From a virus: a DNA stretch of 42,345 nt. The stretch lies in the IMG/VR virus record IMGVR_UViG_3300030085_000423, positions 1 through 42,345 of that record; one strand, written 5' to 3'. Numbering within the stretch: position 1 is the first letter of the stretch; every line of letters begins with the position of its first letter. Shown one piece after another: positions 2,632 to 40,179 of this stretch. The notes beneath the pieces were generated by a model. The model did no database searches and was not told where the DNA came from. It saw only the letters and a program-made list of their open reading frames with translations. A program made the translations under genes and the position numbers.

Positions 2632-3181
2632 ATAAGCGAAGCTATCTATGAGTAAGAGTTAGGTTAATTCCCTGTTGTCCTAACAACTGAAAGTAGGTAG
2701 CTTGTAGCACATAAGAAACTAACAGTTTGCCAACTATAGCTAATACCTAGATTGGTGGGGTTGAAACTTCCATTGTGTGTTACAAGCTATCTATTCAAAC
2801 AAACTACTTGACCTCTCGCTCAGAGTACTCAAAGTATGATAATGAAACGAGGCATACACGAAGTTAAGTATCTTGTTAATTGAGTAGGTAGCTTGTAGCA
2901 CATAATATACTGAAACAATTAAAAGAAAAGAGCTTCATAGAAGCGACAGGAATTGTGTGTTACAAGCTATTTGCTGAAACTTAATACCCTATGGGCGAAT
3001 AAGTACAGAGGTAGATAGCGTGGTGTGTATAGTAAATGCACTTGACATTGTGCAGTCCTTTCGTAATCGCGCTGTACACACCACGCTATTTACATAGCAC
3101 ATAGGATTAGGCAACTCACTCTAAAACAATAATAAATATCTATTAGAGTTGCCTCCCTATGTAGTAAGAGAAAGAGAGTAT
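2632..3181 (+). ncRNA. Array of long hairpins (candidate structured RNA)
   Basis: A 550-base gene-free tract with a succession of inverted repeats. H0: 2658-2663/2679-2684. H1: 2692-2714/2773-2795, 23 bp with four wobbles. A bridging stem: 2805-2812/2863-2870. H2: 2883-2906/2952-2975, 24 bp, with inner hairpin GCTTC-ATA-GAAGC. H3: 3011-3031/3073-3093, 21 bp, with inner TGCAC/GTGCA. H4: 3099-3105/3156-3162 plus 3110-3117/3146-3153. H1 and H2 share almost identical arms but different loops; differences in the arms keep pairing. No promoter is obvious, so it may be processed from the upstream transcript. No known RNA family recognised. Confidence 0.6.
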
Positions 3182-3322
3182 ATGTTATGTGATATGTGCC
3201 GTGAAGGTAAATATTCAAAGCTAATGATAGAAGCTAATGTCAAATCCTCTGTATATCACAGAGTTATTTGTTATTTATGTGGATATCAAACTGTTAAAAG
3301 ACTAAATGTAAAGAGAATATAA
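3182..3322 (+). CDS. Zinc-ribbon mini-protein, 46 aa
   Basis: A 46-residue protein with two cysteine pairs, CDMC (residues 3-6) and CYLC (30-33), separated as in a small treble-clef or zinc ribbon. It starts MLCDMCREGKYSKL after a purine-rich AAAGAGAG site, and ends 12 bases before the next gene, whose SD (AAAGGAGAG) overlaps its stop. It sits directly after hairpin H4, which could affect its translation. Probably a small nucleic-acid or protein adaptor. Confidence 0.65.
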   Translation: MLCDMCREGKYSKLMIEANVKSSVYHRVICYLCGYQTVKRLNVKRI

Positions 3323-8377: not shown

Positions 8378-8653
8378 ATGATAGATAACACAAAGAAAAA
8401 TGTAGATGACTTACTTGCTAAGGCAACTACACATACAGTAGGTGGAGTAACCAACTGGTATTTAAGACTACCAGAAGATGCAAAACCTTTTATAGATGAA
8501 CTATCCAATAGGGTTGCTAATGAAGGCGCTAAGGCAAATGCTAGAGTTATAAGCGAAATACTCTCTAACGAATTTGACTTTGAAGTTTCTTATAGCAGAG
8601 TAAGACATTGGCTAGTTAAGTTAGAGAAACAATATGCCGAAAAAAAATCATAA
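8378..8653 (+). CDS. Small HTH-like protein, leaderless gene
   Basis: A 91-residue protein beginning MIDNTKKNVDDLLAKATTH. A run of alternating hydrophobic and charged residues followed by VSYSRVRHWLVKLE near residues 70-83 resembles a recognition helix, so DNA binding is plausible. The start at 8378 is chosen over the in-frame ATG at 8342 because it lies six bases after an extended -10 and has no SD: a leaderless message. Palindromic operators upstream make autoregulation plausible. The end overlaps the next gene by 20 bases. Confidence 0.65.
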   Translation: MIDNTKKNVDDLLAKATTHTVGGVTNWYLRLPEDAKPFIDELSNRVANEGAKANARVISEILSNEFDFEVSYSRVRHWLVKLEKQYAEKKS

Positions 8654-9698
8654 CAAAGAGTTAGCAGGGCTAATTGCTGAAGCTGAAAGCGATAAGTTAA
8701 AAGAGTTAAAGCGCACTAATGAAAGATTATTAAAGCAGATTGACAAACTTAAAGACAAGAAAGCAGATATGATACAGGCAGTTTATCAAGGTGCTAGAGA
8801 TGGTATGTCTACTCTAACACTTCCTAAGATAACAAAACCTAATCTAAAGAAAACCCATAAAGACAAAGAGATATGCGTACCTTTGCTCTCTGATATCCAA
8901 CTCGCCAAGAGAACCACGGACTATGGCACTGAAGTTGCAGAGAAGAGAGTTATTGAATATGCACACCGTATTGTCAAACTTACTCACATACAAAGACAAT
9001 CACACAATGTAGATAAATGTGTGGTACTTGCTTTGGGAGACATTGTAGAAGGAGAACTTATATTTCCAGGGCAGGCACATTTAATTGATAGTTCTTTGTA
9101 TAGACAAGTTACAGTAGATGGACCAAGAATAATGCACACTTTCTTTAGTATATTGTTAGAAGCATTTGATGAAGTAGAATGTGTGTGGGTTATTGGTAAT
9201 CACGGAGCATTAGGTGGTAGGTCTAGGCGTGATTATAACCCTGAAACAAATGCAGATAGAATGCTTGGTAAAATTTTACAAACTATGTTTGCTGGAGAAA
9301 AACGAATCAAGTTTACTATTCCTGAAGGTGTCGATAAACATTGGTATGCAGTTGCTAACTTAGGTAGAAAAGCAAAGTTCCTATGTTTTCACGGAGATAA
9401 TATTCGTGGAAGTATGGGCTTACCATTTTATGGATACAATAAAAAAATACTTGGGTGGAAAGCATTAGCTTCACAAGGGCTAATGGAGGACTTCACCCAC
9501 GCAGTATGTGGTCATTATCACACACCAACATCACTATACATTAATGATGTTCGTGTATGGGTTAATGGCTCTACTGAAAGTTATAACAGTTACGCACAAG
9601 AACAACTTGCAAGTATGGGTAGACCATCACAATATTGTTTGTTTGTGAAACCCAACAAAGGAGTTACAGCTGAGTATCTTGTTAACCTAGAGGAGTAA
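8634..9698 (+). CDS. Calcineurin-like metallophosphoesterase
   Basis: A 354-residue protein. A basic coiled N-terminus (1-45) is followed by the binuclear metal-site motifs of the calcineurin/Mre11 fold in order: SDIQ (about 88), GDIVEGE (about 138), GNHG (about 186), HGDN (about 260) and GHYH (about 293). The first motif has Gln where the classic DxH has His; I recall a similar D-x-Q form in actinophage relatives. Likely a phosphodiesterase or nuclease acting on nucleic acid. It is co-transcribed with the ERF-like ssDNA protein, which suggests recombination or replication. Substrate not determinable here. Confidence 0.88.
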   Translation: MPKKNHNKELAGLIAEAESDKLKELKRTNERLLKQIDKLKDKKADMIQAVYQGARDGMSTLTLPKITKPNLKKTHKDKEICVPLLSDIQLAKRTTDYGTEVAEKRVIEYAHRIVKLTHIQRQSHNVDKCVVLALGDIVEGELIFPGQAHLIDSSLYRQVTVDGPRIMHTFFSILLEAFDEVECVWVIGNHGALGGRSRRDYNPETNADRMLGKILQTMFAGEKRIKFTIPEGVDKHWYAVANLGRKAKFLCFHGDNIRGSMGLPFYGYNKKILGWKALASQGLMEDFTHAVCGHYHTPTSLYINDVRVWVNGSTESYNSYAQEQLASMGRPSQYCLFVKPNKGVTAEYLVNLEE

Positions 9699-36331: not shown

Positions 36332-36545
36332 AATCTTCTCCATAATCAAAATCATCAGGAACAATTAAAATATCTATTCTTCCTACTAAAGGAATATAAG
36401 CTACTGTCATAATGTCAATAACTTTTTCTATTTGAAACTGTTGATTATTGTTAATTAATTCAGAATTAGCTTCCCACATAGGTTGCTCTTCTACTGTATA
36501 ATTTTGTGCAATAATTTTTGCAAACTCTTGATTTATATCAGGCAC
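36324..36545 (-). CDS. Hypothetical protein after portal, 73 aa
   Basis: A 73-residue acidic protein starting at a GTG with AGGAGGT upstream, overlapping the portal stop by eight bases. Ends DDFDYGEDYG. No recognised family. Conserved overlap on both sides supports translation. Could be an adaptor or head-associated protein. Confidence 0.6.
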   Translation of the reverse strand: MPDINQEFAKIIAQNYTVEEQPMWEANSELINNNQQFQIEKVIDIMTVAYIPLVGRIDILIVPDDFDYGEDYG

Positions 36546-38265
36546 TTACACCTCCTAACAATGCAGCTAAGTTAGGTGGACCTTGTGGTGTTTGAGCTGC
36601 TTGTGCTTGCATCAAAGCTTGTTCTTCAGGACTTGGCTCTTCTCCTTGTGCTGTAAAATATTTTTCTAATATGCTACCCATTTGTTTTGGATTATTATAT
36701 ATTTCTACAACAGCCATCATTGCTGCTTTATCACCTTGTTGGGAATTTTGCAACAACATCTGGTATAATATATCTTCGGTTCTTTGTTTAGTAATTCTCT
36801 CATTAATTTGACTAAGATTTTCTAAACCATCCATTTCTTGTTGCATAGTTTCTTTATCTATAATTCCTGCTTGTAGTAATTGTAACCCAGTAATTATTTT
36901 ATTAGGTGCGTCAAAAGAAGCCATAGCACCATACTTTCTTCTTGTTACATAGTTCTTATCTATGTCAGAAGAAGGTGTATAACTTTCAGAAAATGATGCG
37001 CCTTTATAAGTTCCTGATATTGGTTTTCTTTTACTACTAAACAATACTTCATCTAGTTCTAATCTTTTAGAATCTATTTCTTGTAAAGCATATTCAAGTA
37101 TTGTGTGATACTCACTAACCATAGCACCTACGCCAGACTCCAGTTCTTCTAGACCTCTTCCTGTTACAAATGAGTTTGGTGAAATAGCGTCATCTTGAAC
37201 TGGATATCCAGCAACAACTCTTAGTTGCCTTTCTAACCTACCAACAGCTTCAAATAACTGATATGGTAAATTTGTTGTAGGTTTTACTACTTGTGAACCT
37301 GGTGTCAAATAGTTTATAGCATTTCTACCTTTTCTATATTGACCTGATTCTATTTCTCCAACAATGTTTGTTTCTGTAAATACTGCATCTTCCATTGCTA
37401 TTACAGATAAAATATTAATTTTAGCCATAGAAGCCATAAGTCCTACAACTTGGTCAAACTGACCTTGTAATCTATCAAAGCTAAATCTTTTAGCAACTAC
37501 AAATGCAGGACCTGATTTTAAAGGATTAGGTACAAAGTCTACAATTTTCTTTGAAGCAACGTGCATAACATATGTACCTTCTATATTCATATACTCTAAA
37601 ATTACATCTCCACTTTCGTTTGAGTTTTCCCAACTACCATCATTGCTGTAATTTAAATTCATTGTGTCGTAAGAATTGTTTTCTGAATCTTTAGCTTCAA
37701 ACCAAGATTTAAGTTCTGGATACATTTGTACCAAGTTTCTTACAGGCACTTTTTGTATAATGGCTAATTCATCAGGATTTTGCATATTACCCATATAACC
37801 AGGAAAGCAATCGTATGGGTTTCTTAATTCTGCACACGGATACAAATTTCCATTAGCATCTGGTTTAGAAGTAATAACCCATACAGCAAAGCCATAACCT
37901 GGTAACCATCTAGCAACTTGTGGTAACTGTAATTCTAATTGTTGCATTTTATCGTATGCAGTAACAATTCTTTCTAGTTTGTCTTTTTTAACTTTGTTTC
38001 TTTGACTATCTCTTGCATTTGTAATGTGTACATCTAAAGAAGGAACTTTACCTATTTTTTGTGAAAGTCTGTCTAATGCAGATAACAATAAGTTAGGAGC
38101 AGGTATTGTATATGCTTCGTTATTACTAAGTCCTGGTCCTAGTAATTCTCTAATTCCATCTTCTCCACCATTTAAAATAGCTCTAAATCTTGCTCTATCT
38201 AATAATGCGTCATCGTGCATATTTTTAAGATAAGTTGCTCTCTCAATGATTGCTTCAGGTTTCAT
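36538..38265 (-). CDS. Portal protein
   Basis: A 575-residue protein with portal-like features: helical N-terminus, an APNLLLSALDRLSQKIGKVP segment, a beta-rich wing (ELRNPYDCFPGY, then DELAIIQKVPV), a long helical stem and a Gln/Pro-rich C-terminal tail (about 540-575). It directly follows TerL (adjacent TAA-ATG, SD TTGGAG), the usual order. It forms the dodecameric DNA gate at the capsid vertex. Length is within the range of short-tailed phage portals. Confidence 0.85.
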   Translation of the reverse strand: MKPEAIIERATYLKNMHDDALLDRARFRAILNGGEDGIRELLGPGLSNNEAYTIPAPNLLLSALDRLSQKIGKVPSLDVHITNARDSQRNKVKKDKLERIVTAYDKMQQLELQLPQVARWLPGYGFAVWVITSKPDANGNLYPCAELRNPYDCFPGYMGNMQNPDELAIIQKVPVRNLVQMYPELKSWFEAKDSENNSYDTMNLNYSNDGSWENSNESGDVILEYMNIEGTYVMHVASKKIVDFVPNPLKSGPAFVVAKRFSFDRLQGQFDQVVGLMASMAKINILSVIAMEDAVFTETNIVGEIESGQYRKGRNAINYLTPGSQVVKPTTNLPYQLFEAVGRLERQLRVVAGYPVQDDAISPNSFVTGRGLEELESGVGAMVSEYHTILEYALQEIDSKRLELDEVLFSSKRKPISGTYKGASFSESYTPSSDIDKNYVTRRKYGAMASFDAPNKIITGLQLLQAGIIDKETMQQEMDGLENLSQINERITKQRTEDILYQMLLQNSQQGDKAAMMAVVEIYNNPKQMGSILEKYFTAQGEEPSPEEQALMQAQAAQTPQGPPNLAALLGGVSA

Positions 38266-40179
38266 TTAACTCCAAGGTGTTTCGTTCCATTCTACACTAT
38301 TATACCCATCAAAGCTAGGAGTGTAGTCAATTCCTATATCTGCATATGTAAGTTTAGATAACGTTCTAACTACTTTCATAGGAAACCAACTAGCCATAAC
38401 TATATCGCTTTTGTAACTTCTACTTCCGCTACCTTTAGAAGCAAAGTATGTAAGTTGTTTTGTGTATTGTGTAGTTTTAGCTTGTGCATCAGCATCACCA
38501 AAAGGTAATGTAATCATTTTATCGTTAAACATAGGAGCAAGTGATGTAACACCAAATCTTTCATCCCATTTGTTTTTATGAGTTTCGTGTCCTTCTAGCT
38601 TTATTCCCTGTACATTACAAAATTGTTTAATTGTTTTATCTTGTCTAATAGCTTTTTGAAATCCATTTTCTTCAATTACCCAGTGGTAACATCCATACAT
38701 ATCCCACCATTTTTTAATTAATTCAAATGCTTCATCTAAACCACCACCTAAGTGGTTGTCTAAATCAACCATTGTAAGTTTTACTTCACTTGTTGTTGTT
38801 TCTACTGCCCAGAGAAATCCTGCTTGATAACCTGTAGCTGCAGGGTCTAATCCTGCTACTAAGTAAGAACCACTAGGTATTGTGCCTAATGGCATTGTAG
38901 GGTTGTAACATTGTGCTATTTGTTCTGGATTAAACAATCTAGCAGCTTCAGAGAAAGCTTTATTTAGATAAACCATTTCAAAGTTCTTTAATCCACCAGT
39001 AGTCATAGAATCTCTTTTACGATTCATTAACCACTTAAAAGTTCTTTTACCTTCCCACAACATACATTCAGTATGTTCTTCTTCATTTACCTCTGGTATT
39101 ACACACATAGAATCGTGTGCTTCTTCAACTATAGTTTCCCAAGCTTCGTTTTCTAAAATTGCAGAATATAAATCATCAGGATGCTGTCTTGAACCAATAA
39201 GCACCATAGCAGTATGTTCCTCTTTTCTAGAACCAAGAGTTGTTGTCCACCAGTTTTTAGTATTGTTTCTTGATGCAGGTTGCATAGTAGAACTAAAATC
39301 TTCAATGTCGTCTGCAATAATTATGTCACAGTCACGAGAAAGTATTTTACCACCTCTACCAATACCAATCATTGTAGGTGACTTTATACCTGATACAGTT
39401 CTTGTAGATACAGTAAAACCATTTCTTGACCACATCTTACCTGCTCTAGTTGCAGGTTTAAAACTACCACCTGGTCCACAAAAATCTTCTTTTAGTTTTT
39501 CGTTTTGGTCTAGTGTGTCCATAACAGACATTACAGAGTTCATAGCAATATCTTCATTACCACCAACCCACATAACTCTAATGTTTGGATTTCTACAAAT
39601 TAACCATATAACAAAGTGTATAAGCAGTTCTGTTTTTCCGTGTCGTGGTGGACTAAGTATCATTTGCTGACCACCAGTTAACAAAGCTTTGTTAATAGAT
39701 TTAATCCAGTTATGATGAAACTCTGCTGTTTCAAATGGAACGCCTTGTTCTGTTAAAAAGTATCTGTCTCTAAAATTTTTAAAATCATCTAAAGATTGTT
39801 TTGCATCATCAGATACTTCCCAGTTCTCTGCTTGTATATCTTTTTCTAAATCTTCTCTAAATGCAGCTAACATTCTAGCAACGTGTCCTGATGTGCAACC
39901 TAAAGCATTAGCTACTTCTTGTCTTGTAATTTGGTCTTTAATTAACTCTGATGCATATCCCTGATTTCTAAACTTGTCATACAATGAACCTCTTCTTACA
40001 GTTGCAGATTTTGGTTCGTTAATTTCTTTTACAGGCAATTCGTATGTTTCACCTTTTTGTTTAGCTCTGTGTATTCTTTGAGATATTCTTTTATAGCAAG
40101 TATCACTACAATATTTAGTTTTGTTTGGTGGTAGTTGTGCATCACAATCTGGTGCAATACAAACTATGTTTTTTACCAT
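38266..40179 (-). CDS. terL: Terminase large subunit with N-terminal zinc finger and HTH
   Basis: A 637-residue packaging motor. A zinc finger (C7, C12, C24, C28) and basic helix (29-42) are followed by a helix-turn-helix (about 84-108, TRQEVANALGCTSGHVARML). The ATPase has Walker A SPPRHGKT (176-183) and Walker B DIIIADDIED (about 285-294). The nuclease has GLDPAATG (Asp 445), VIEENG (about 497) and SDIVMAS near 596. The HTH is the kind of DNA-binding unit normally carried by TerS, and no separate small subunit is evident, so this may be a TerS-TerL fusion. The start overlaps the previous gene by seven bases. Confidence 0.92.
   Translation of the reverse strand: MVKNIVCIAPDCDAQLPPNKTKYCSDTCYKRISQRIHRAKQKGETYELPVKEINEPKSATVRRGSLYDKFRNQGYASELIKDQITRQEVANALGCTSGHVARMLAAFREDLEKDIQAENWEVSDDAKQSLDDFKNFRDRYFLTEQGVPFETAEFHHNWIKSINKALLTGGQQMILSPPRHGKTELLIHFVIWLICRNPNIRVMWVGGNEDIAMNSVMSVMDTLDQNEKLKEDFCGPGGSFKPATRAGKMWSRNGFTVSTRTVSGIKSPTMIGIGRGGKILSRDCDIIIADDIEDFSSTMQPASRNNTKNWWTTTLGSRKEEHTAMVLIGSRQHPDDLYSAILENEAWETIVEEAHDSMCVIPEVNEEEHTECMLWEGKRTFKWLMNRKRDSMTTGGLKNFEMVYLNKAFSEAARLFNPEQIAQCYNPTMPLGTIPSGSYLVAGLDPAATGYQAGFLWAVETTTSEVKLTMVDLDNHLGGGLDEAFELIKKWWDMYGCYHWVIEENGFQKAIRQDKTIKQFCNVQGIKLEGHETHKNKWDERFGVTSLAPMFNDKMITLPFGDADAQAKTTQYTKQLTYFASKGSGSRSYKSDIVMASWFPMKVVRTLSKLTYADIGIDYTPSFDGYNSVEWNETPWS

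Follow-up and report, generated by a model that had tools for sequence, protein, structure and literature searches.

IMG/VR virus record IMGVR_UViG_3300030085_000423 (positions 1–42,345; hereafter the window, meaning the whole 42-kb stretch analysed) carries a half-kilobase run of long hairpins between two small open reading frames (ORFs). The question raised by this locus is whether the hairpins form an RNA whose folding is maintained by selection and, if so, what such an RNA does for the phage. Comparison with related loci (designated by L numbers) revealed a clade-wide, hypervariable array of RNA modules in a family of marine phages that probably infect actinobacteria: its folding is clearly under selection, the favoured fold lies on the coding strand, the stems covary around conserved cores, the array occupies a conserved site, and its units are exchanged between phages as cassettes.

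Hairpins of the Window

The initial annotation, made from the sequence alone, described three long stems (H1–H3), two further hairpins around them (H0 and H4) and a bridging stem. Independent scans placed the arms of H1, H2 and H3, as well as the bridging stem, at the same coordinates. The features of the array are as follows:

2632–3181 (+), the entire RNA module array, from the stop of a 37-codon ORF (2518–2631) to the start of a 46-codon ORF (3182–3322)
2640–2702 (+), module Y (H0), covarying, covariance model 74 bits, with an outer stem GCTATCTAT 2641–2649 / GTAGGTAGC 2693–2701
2651–2691 (+), interior of Y: AGTA 2651–2654 and GAA 2689–2691, second stem 2658–2663/2679–2684, loop CCCTGTT 2670–2676
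2692–2795 (+), H1, stalk arms 2692–2714 / 2773–2795, head 2715–2772
2772–2798 / 2880–2906 (+), alternative bridging stem of the H1 3′ arm with the H2 5′ arm, 27 nt, 85% complementary
2803–2873 (+), module X in the H1–H2 linker, with a proposed pseudoknot GTATG 2834–2838 / CATAC 2853–2857
2883–2975 (+), H2, stalk arms 2883–2906 / 2952–2975
2976–3010 (+), linker Z (GAAACTTAATACCCTATGGGCGAATAAGTACAGAG), with relatives in L017 and L055
3011–3093 (+), H3, arms 3011–3033 / 3071–3093, a diverged stalk GTAGATAGCGTGGTG... / ...CACCACGCTATTTAC with an inner hairpin
3095–3167 (+), H4, distal hairpin

Folding of the 550-nt segment yields −186.4 kcal/mol on the plus strand (z = −10.3, with none of 100 shuffles as good) and a weaker fold on the minus strand (z = −4.4). 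The array stems score 48, 57, 49 and 52; when the complete 42-kb window was dinucleotide-shuffled 20 times, the best stem scored 42. As the initial annotation had noted, no reading frame explains the segment: the longest open frame in the array does not exceed 47 codons, and a coding explanation was rejected.

H1 and H2 do have common 5′ and 3′ arms, and the differences between them keep the pairing (G2693·T2794 versus G2884–C2974, as well as C2791/T2971 and A2793/G2973). Other parts of the first description had to be revised. H0 is a separate structured module (Y), and since it is closed by GCTATCTAT/GTAGGTAGC, its 3′ arm is common to H0 and H1. H3 has the inner-hairpin layout ascribed to it, but its arms, taken at first to be different, correspond to the same stem in diverged form (GTAGATAGC.../...GCTATTTAC). 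A further structured module, X, lies in the H1–H2 linker.

The H1 head also occurs in L001, there with a different linker, and a near-identical copy of the H2 head is found in L069. In the L017 relative of linker Z, TCC/GGA replaces CCC/GGG, while relatives of H3 with compensated arms are present in L106, L114 and L116. H4 folds in both of the sequences examined, the window and L106.

Selection on the Folded RNA

Non-Watson–Crick pairs on the coding strand were counted in 36 distinct upper stems (positions 9–19 from the base), which gave 57 G·U against 7 A·C (nominal p = 8 × 10−11, the related stems not being fully independent). This excess points to RNA, although G·T also forms in single-stranded DNA, and the excess alone is not conclusive. 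When 34 diverged upper stems, picked by their outer 9 nt only, were compared with re-dealt arms, the true partners paired at 0.776, whereas the re-dealt ones averaged 0.520 and reached 0.597 at most. At the array site, arms can differ wholly in sequence yet pair (GTAATTATTACTTACTGCG/TGCAGTAAGTAATAGCTAT, TGCGTAGCACTAAGTCTATTG/CAGTAGGCTTAGTGCTATGTG). The selection on pairing that was originally suspected is thus strongly supported by compensated stems across relatives: arms drifting without compensation would have spoken against it, and the opposite was found, with sequences changing and pairing kept.

Modules Y and X

Covariation in Y was assessed on 30 sequences chosen for diversity and unfiltered for pairing; all 52 available sequences were also examined. 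All 14 pairs are doubly changed, and 97.1% of the cells pair, compared with 70.9% after shuffling (0 of 500 shuffles as high) and at most 48% in slid controls. The outer stems can be very unlike and all pair (TTAGTGTCTAT/GTAGGCACTAA, TTGTTACTGGT/GCCAGTAACA, AAGCCGTAG/CTACGGCTT). Linker pairing in Y is selected in its own right. Within these stems the loop CCCTGT is invariant, and the AGTA/GAA internal loop resembles, by eye, the bulged-G type.

A pattern of Y devoid of stem sequences gave 61 matches in further viral loci, 48 of them with both stems; in GTDB genomes, one of 34 matches had both stems, and it lies on a contig with terminase and portal genes of the phage clade. Of 42 sources searched with the covariance model, 23 gave a single match, located at the site of the array; some sources had supplied sequences to the model and some fall short of the site. 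The alignment A3 was selected for pairing, and serves as a search model only, not as evidence of covariation. In L262, Y stands as the head of a full TAGGTAGC...GCTATCTA stalk.

In X, six of seven outer-stem pairs are doubly changed around a nearly invariant core. The proposed pseudoknot pairs never vary, and the pseudoknot is therefore unproven. Single-sequence folding of X was not better than that of shuffles, and the support for this module is comparative only. X is found as a linker, as a head attached via an extra stem, and grafted straight onto the common stalk. The conservation of cores under rewritten stems shows that Y and X are more than recent copies.

C-rich apical loops are enriched in the modules of the clade (CCCTGT, 51 versus 5.0 expected; CCTTTC, 22 versus 2.6 expected), and the CCTTTC loop is complementary to the GAAAGG ribosome-binding sites of these phages.

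Array Grammar and Module Exchange

A typical array runs from the upstream stop codon through b (GCTATCTAT), linker, a (GTAGGTAGC...), head, b, linker, a, head and b to a ribosome-binding site, and arrays range from one to many such units, which differ in sequence and in length (~60–200 nt). In total, 143 distinct heads and 119 distinct linkers fall into 165 similarity clusters. Heads and linkers reassort, the same head following different linkers and vice versa, and some modules serve as a head in one phage but as a linker in a different one. No reverse-complemented module was detected.

Among 190 pairs of loci with a common head (at least 85% identical) and otherwise diverged, 107 have no other alignable 250-nt segment; in the remaining 83, the heads average 94.7% identity and the rest 77.7%. 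The immediate flanks of common heads were unmatched in 320 of 372 tests, and shared heads show no fixed association with a particular downstream gene. In 171 pairs picked for unlike flanks, identity stays close to 1 between the ends G|TAGGTAGC and GCTATCTAT|, and drops to the background level within 1–2 bases beyond them. Stem and head therefore move together as a sharply bounded cassette. L106 shares 92–94% identity with the window across most of the flanking DNA, yet it has other modules; it keeps the borders AATAAGCGAA|GCTATCTA and TAGCACATAG..TTAGGCAACTC, and has an extra unit between GCTATNTAYATAGCACATA direct repeats. The hairpins of the initial annotation are real, but the locus is not one RNA with long hairpins: it is modular, rapidly shuffled and wider than had been seen.

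The simplest mechanism of exchange would be recombination at the stems. No Y1 transposase, tyrosine integrase (PF00589) or reverse transcriptase was detected in nine records, some of them fragments, and comparison with empty sites revealed no clean insertion boundary and no target duplication.

Single hairpins between successive genes are found in L058 and L067. Before the gene that has the hairpin in these two loci, the minus strand of L072 (gap at plus 3035–3136) shows a sigma-70-like promoter instead (TTGACA-17-TATAGT, by eye), and this promoter-like sequence sits within a different inverted repeat.

Genomic Location and Host

The array is enclosed by a co-directional gene run and lies on the gene strand. 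Based on gene content and position, the operon that holds it is probably an early one. Across the loci, 160 of 162 arrays lie between genes; both neighbours are on the same strand in 116 and both on the opposite strand in 3, while the mixed cases may include small spurious ORFs. Some loci have several arrays. The flanking gene pair of the window, where found elsewhere, encloses an array in all 17 matches and is empty in none. In a second sample of loci, drawn via the exonuclease protein and hence blind to hairpins, 33 loci extend upstream to the region concerned, and every one of them contains a long co-directional hairpin 3.8–7.2 kb upstream of the exonuclease gene, compared with two of the 33 in a nearby control interval of equal width.

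The exact 21-mer TAGGTAGCTTGTAGCACATAA is present in 101 IMG/VR stretches, of which 91 match the window by protein; the arm 20-mer TAGSTAGCTTGTAGCACATA was not found in 84,980 GTDB species genomes. The nearest annotated relatives of the portal (36538–38265, −) and terminase (38266–40179, −) proteins are mostly from Streptomyces phages (~25% identity), and the exonuclease (8634–9698) shares 45% identity with that of Streptomyces phage Dagobah. A 1.1-Mb Actinomycetota metagenome-assembled genome (MAG; G001, with L262 being PBPX01000048.1) contains two contigs with a terminase of the clade (70% and 53% identity) and a Y element. As judged from the phage-protein relatives and these contigs, the host is probably a marine actinobacterium, an assignment weakened by the uncertainty of MAG binning. 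This MAG is the only hint of a host. A host origin of Y itself was rejected, given that Y is absent from 41 other genomes of the same family and that the Y elements of the MAG lie on the contigs carrying the clade terminase.

Two other features of the window were observed. A 27-bp hairpin (AGGTAGTTAGTTAACTTATGGGATATT/AATAACTTATAGGATGACTAGCTACCT) is located near its left end (126–222, +), and is also found in L106 (1514–1610). A GC-only palindrome, GCGCGCGCAAGCGCGCGC (1284–1301), lies between the genes 850–1269 and 1281–1577 in a genome that is otherwise 34% GC.

Proposed Function and Alternatives

The array may be regarded as a set of structured noncoding RNA modules within an early operon transcript, each module being a compact RNA domain carried by a stalk that measures ~22 bp at most, and the interchangeable stalk sequences serving as joints for module exchange between phages. 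As the cores of Y and X remain constant while the stalks are rewritten, the cores probably bind specific partners. Early in infection, the modules would interact with RNA-binding proteins of the host or with RNA-based defences, and phage–host conflict would drive their turnover; a nuclease specific for double strands may also cleave the stalks and so free the modules. As the most likely reading, we tentatively take the modules to be early-made RNA effectors or decoys in phage–host conflict, and hold this at somewhat less than even confidence; transcription, timing, processing, binding and the role in conflict are inferred. There is a precedent for a phage RNA decoy, namely the pseudo-ToxI RNA of phage TE, which acts against ToxIN (PMC5086642). 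The effector reading fits the conserved cores, the single Y per site, the lack of linkage to downstream genes and the replacement of modules among close relatives. In a bolder form, which appears doubtful, the locus would be a hypervariable RNA "anti-defence island", with dozens of aptamer-like modules on standard stalks acting in counter-defence or host takeover, an RNA counterpart of anti-CRISPR islands.

Some observations weigh against the effector reading. The arrays lie between operon genes, often 13–60 nt before a start codon, as cis elements would, and some relatives have single hairpins between successive genes.

In the main rival explanation, the array acts in cis on the messenger RNA (mRNA): the stalks would serve for processing or stabilisation, either as RNase III sites or by blocking 5′ exonucleases, and would split the operon transcript and protect the mRNA of each gene; the heads would be functionally interchangeable and shuffled by recombination at the shared stems. 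Stems of ~20 bp suit RNase III, and those of H1–H3 (22–24 bp) would, if transcribed, provide the approximately two uninterrupted helical turns of an RNase III substrate; a link to this enzyme, as putative processing, is plausible. The intergenic, co-directional placement of the arrays (116 both-same versus 3 both-opposite neighbours), the fact that all 33 relatives have a hairpin at this position regardless of sequence, the lone hairpins of L058 and L067, and the absence of a fixed gene downstream of shared heads are all in agreement with the cis reading. However, it leaves unexplained why the Y and X cores are invariant under wholly rewritten stems and why near-identical heads occur in otherwise diverged phages. 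We consider cis processing or stabilisation as the whole explanation somewhat less likely than the effector reading.

For each b arm, both neighbouring a arms are possible pairing partners, and therefore alternative registers of similar energy exist (heads, −183.2; nested, −186.4; linkers, −180.9 kcal/mol). The minimum free energy fold uses the bridging stem, and differs from the fold with H1 and H2 by ~3 kcal/mol; co-transcriptional folding should favour the heads. These competing pairings could make the array a cis riboregulator, a bistable switch acting on the downstream ribosome-binding site, in which C-rich loops (CCUUUC, CCCUGU) may pair with the Shine–Dalgarno sequence. The similar energies, the separate selection on linker pairing in Y and the enrichment of the CCCTGT and CCTTTC loops are consistent with such a switch. 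On the other hand, shared arms trivially give equal energies, shared heads do not track the downstream gene, the number of units varies from one to many, and the pairing of loops with ribosome-binding sites is putative; we regard this explanation as improbable.

It is less probable still that the units are selfish mobile hairpins, similar to miniature inverted-repeat transposable elements (MITEs) or to REPINs, that bring no benefit to the phage. Cassettes with sharp ends have indeed spread into unrelated flanks, and some loci contain several arrays. Nevertheless, no module is reversed, co-direction with genes is strong, wobbles are strand-asymmetric, the site is conserved in 33 of 33 loci, changes are compensatory around invariant cores, and no Y1 transposase, integrase or reverse transcriptase was found in the nine records.

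Finally, a DNA-level element (an origin, packaging signal or integron-like recombination site) is very improbable: conserved ends with variable middles recall attC sites in outline and exchange does occur at the ends, but linkers and heads are inherited separately, the nine records lack a tyrosine integrase, G·U prevails over A·C on the coding strand (alone not conclusive, as said above), several arrays occur in some loci, and module cores are invariant. An origin in particular, one of the roles first considered, is unsupported because of the asymmetric wobbles, the several co-directional intergenic sites and the lack of any inverted module. The transposon-like, integron and origin readings fail their tests.

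tRNA-like Elements in Relatives

Some related loci carry minigenes for a transfer RNA (tRNA)-like domain, a few of them directly after an array; they are in line with RNA mimicry. In L062 (2334–2413, +), and with the same sequence in L020 and L101, the tRNA-like domain of transfer-messenger RNA (tmRNA) is present without the mRNA domain, a short hairpin being in its place. We know of no tmRNA form consisting of the tRNA-like domain only; the full two-piece tmRNA is known in phages (PMC9004378). Further minigenes of this kind are found in L037 (7971–8045, +), L049 (3722–3790, −), L097 (2618–2695, −), L010 (9995–10075, −) and L055 (minus-strand positions 1953–2032), and a G3·U70-type (alanine) pair is kept across different acceptor stems. 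The Rfam tmRNA score of L062 is 52.4 bits (cut-off 47), while the other Rfam-matched minigenes score 32–40 bits. The L037 record contains no tyrosine integrase. T-arm-like hairpins were also seen within heads of L155 (4622–4824), L157, L015, L060 and L152 (e.g., CTTATAGGTTCAAATCCTATCA); a tRNA origin of the L155 head is not claimed because the match amounts to only 13.9 bits over 18 nt.

Implications

If the effector reading is true, phages exchange RNA domains as cassettes with a standard stem as the connector, as they do with protein anti-defence genes. The locus would then provide covarying RNA families (Y, X and about 160 module clusters), the partners of which are directly searchable, and the role of structured RNAs in phage operons would become testable. 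Should mRNA processing be the whole role of the array, the locus would still document, with unusual clarity, how helices evolve in nature around unchanging cores and how recombination takes place at helical joints.

Comparison with Known Systems

The first impression that no phage RNA of this form is known is supported by database and literature searches. At the gathering threshold, Rfam 15 yielded no family in the window; for the array there were only weak microRNA, small nucleolar RNA and CRISPR-repeat matches far below threshold, and no array match was obtained in five related array-rich loci. A blastn search of INPHARED with the array gave no match, and a literature search (open-licence papers only, no preprints) found no description of such an array. 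We know of no other architecture in which a large number of dissimilar structured RNAs are set on one standard, exchangeable stalk, although an earlier description may exist elsewhere.

Similar to the array, ToxIN and pseudo-ToxI arrays (PMC5086642) comprise phage-borne folded RNA units that can be gained by recombination; they act as decoys in phage–host conflict, as is proposed for the array. ToxI units, however, are short near-identical pseudoknot repeats, whereas the units here are unlike modules of ~60–200 nt on long stalks without an Rfam match, and no toxin gene, in particular no ToxN-type endoribonuclease, was found among the neighbouring genes scanned (Pfam, PADLOC).

Repetitive extragenic palindromes (REP/REPIN), MITEs and mitochondrial repetitive hairpin elements (PMC2800124, PMC12306157) are, like the array, repeated mobile hairpins or palindromes in intergenic DNA. 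They are expected to be oriented independently of genes and to have stem mismatches without strand bias; the array, by contrast, has strand-asymmetric wobbles, a single orientation to genes, invariant RNA cores and one conserved site. No RAYT-type Y1 transposase was found in the nine records, though a transposase acting in trans could move a non-autonomous element. Integron attC cassettes share with the array hairpins with conserved ends and variable middles, and arrays beginning with a half site. An attC site moves with its own cassette, whereas the heads and linkers of the array reassort freely, its coding-strand fold is selected, and no IntI-type integrase is present in the nine records.

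The ornate phage and bacterial RNAs GOLLD and ROOL (PMC12286853) are also large, structured and noncoding, and some occur in phages, but each is a defined single architecture, while the array is a shuffled set of modules without an Rfam match. TIGR-Tas arrays (PMC12045711) are likewise tandem RNA arrays in phages; unlike them, the array has no regular repeat–spacer units. The nine records contain no Tas or Nop-domain protein. RNase III processing hairpins are known from the early mRNA of phage T7 and from the processing stalks of ribosomal RNA, and they too are long intercistronic double-stranded stems on the coding strand. Cleavage of the array is putative, and, in contrast to those hairpins, its heads are conserved, complex and exchanged between phages.
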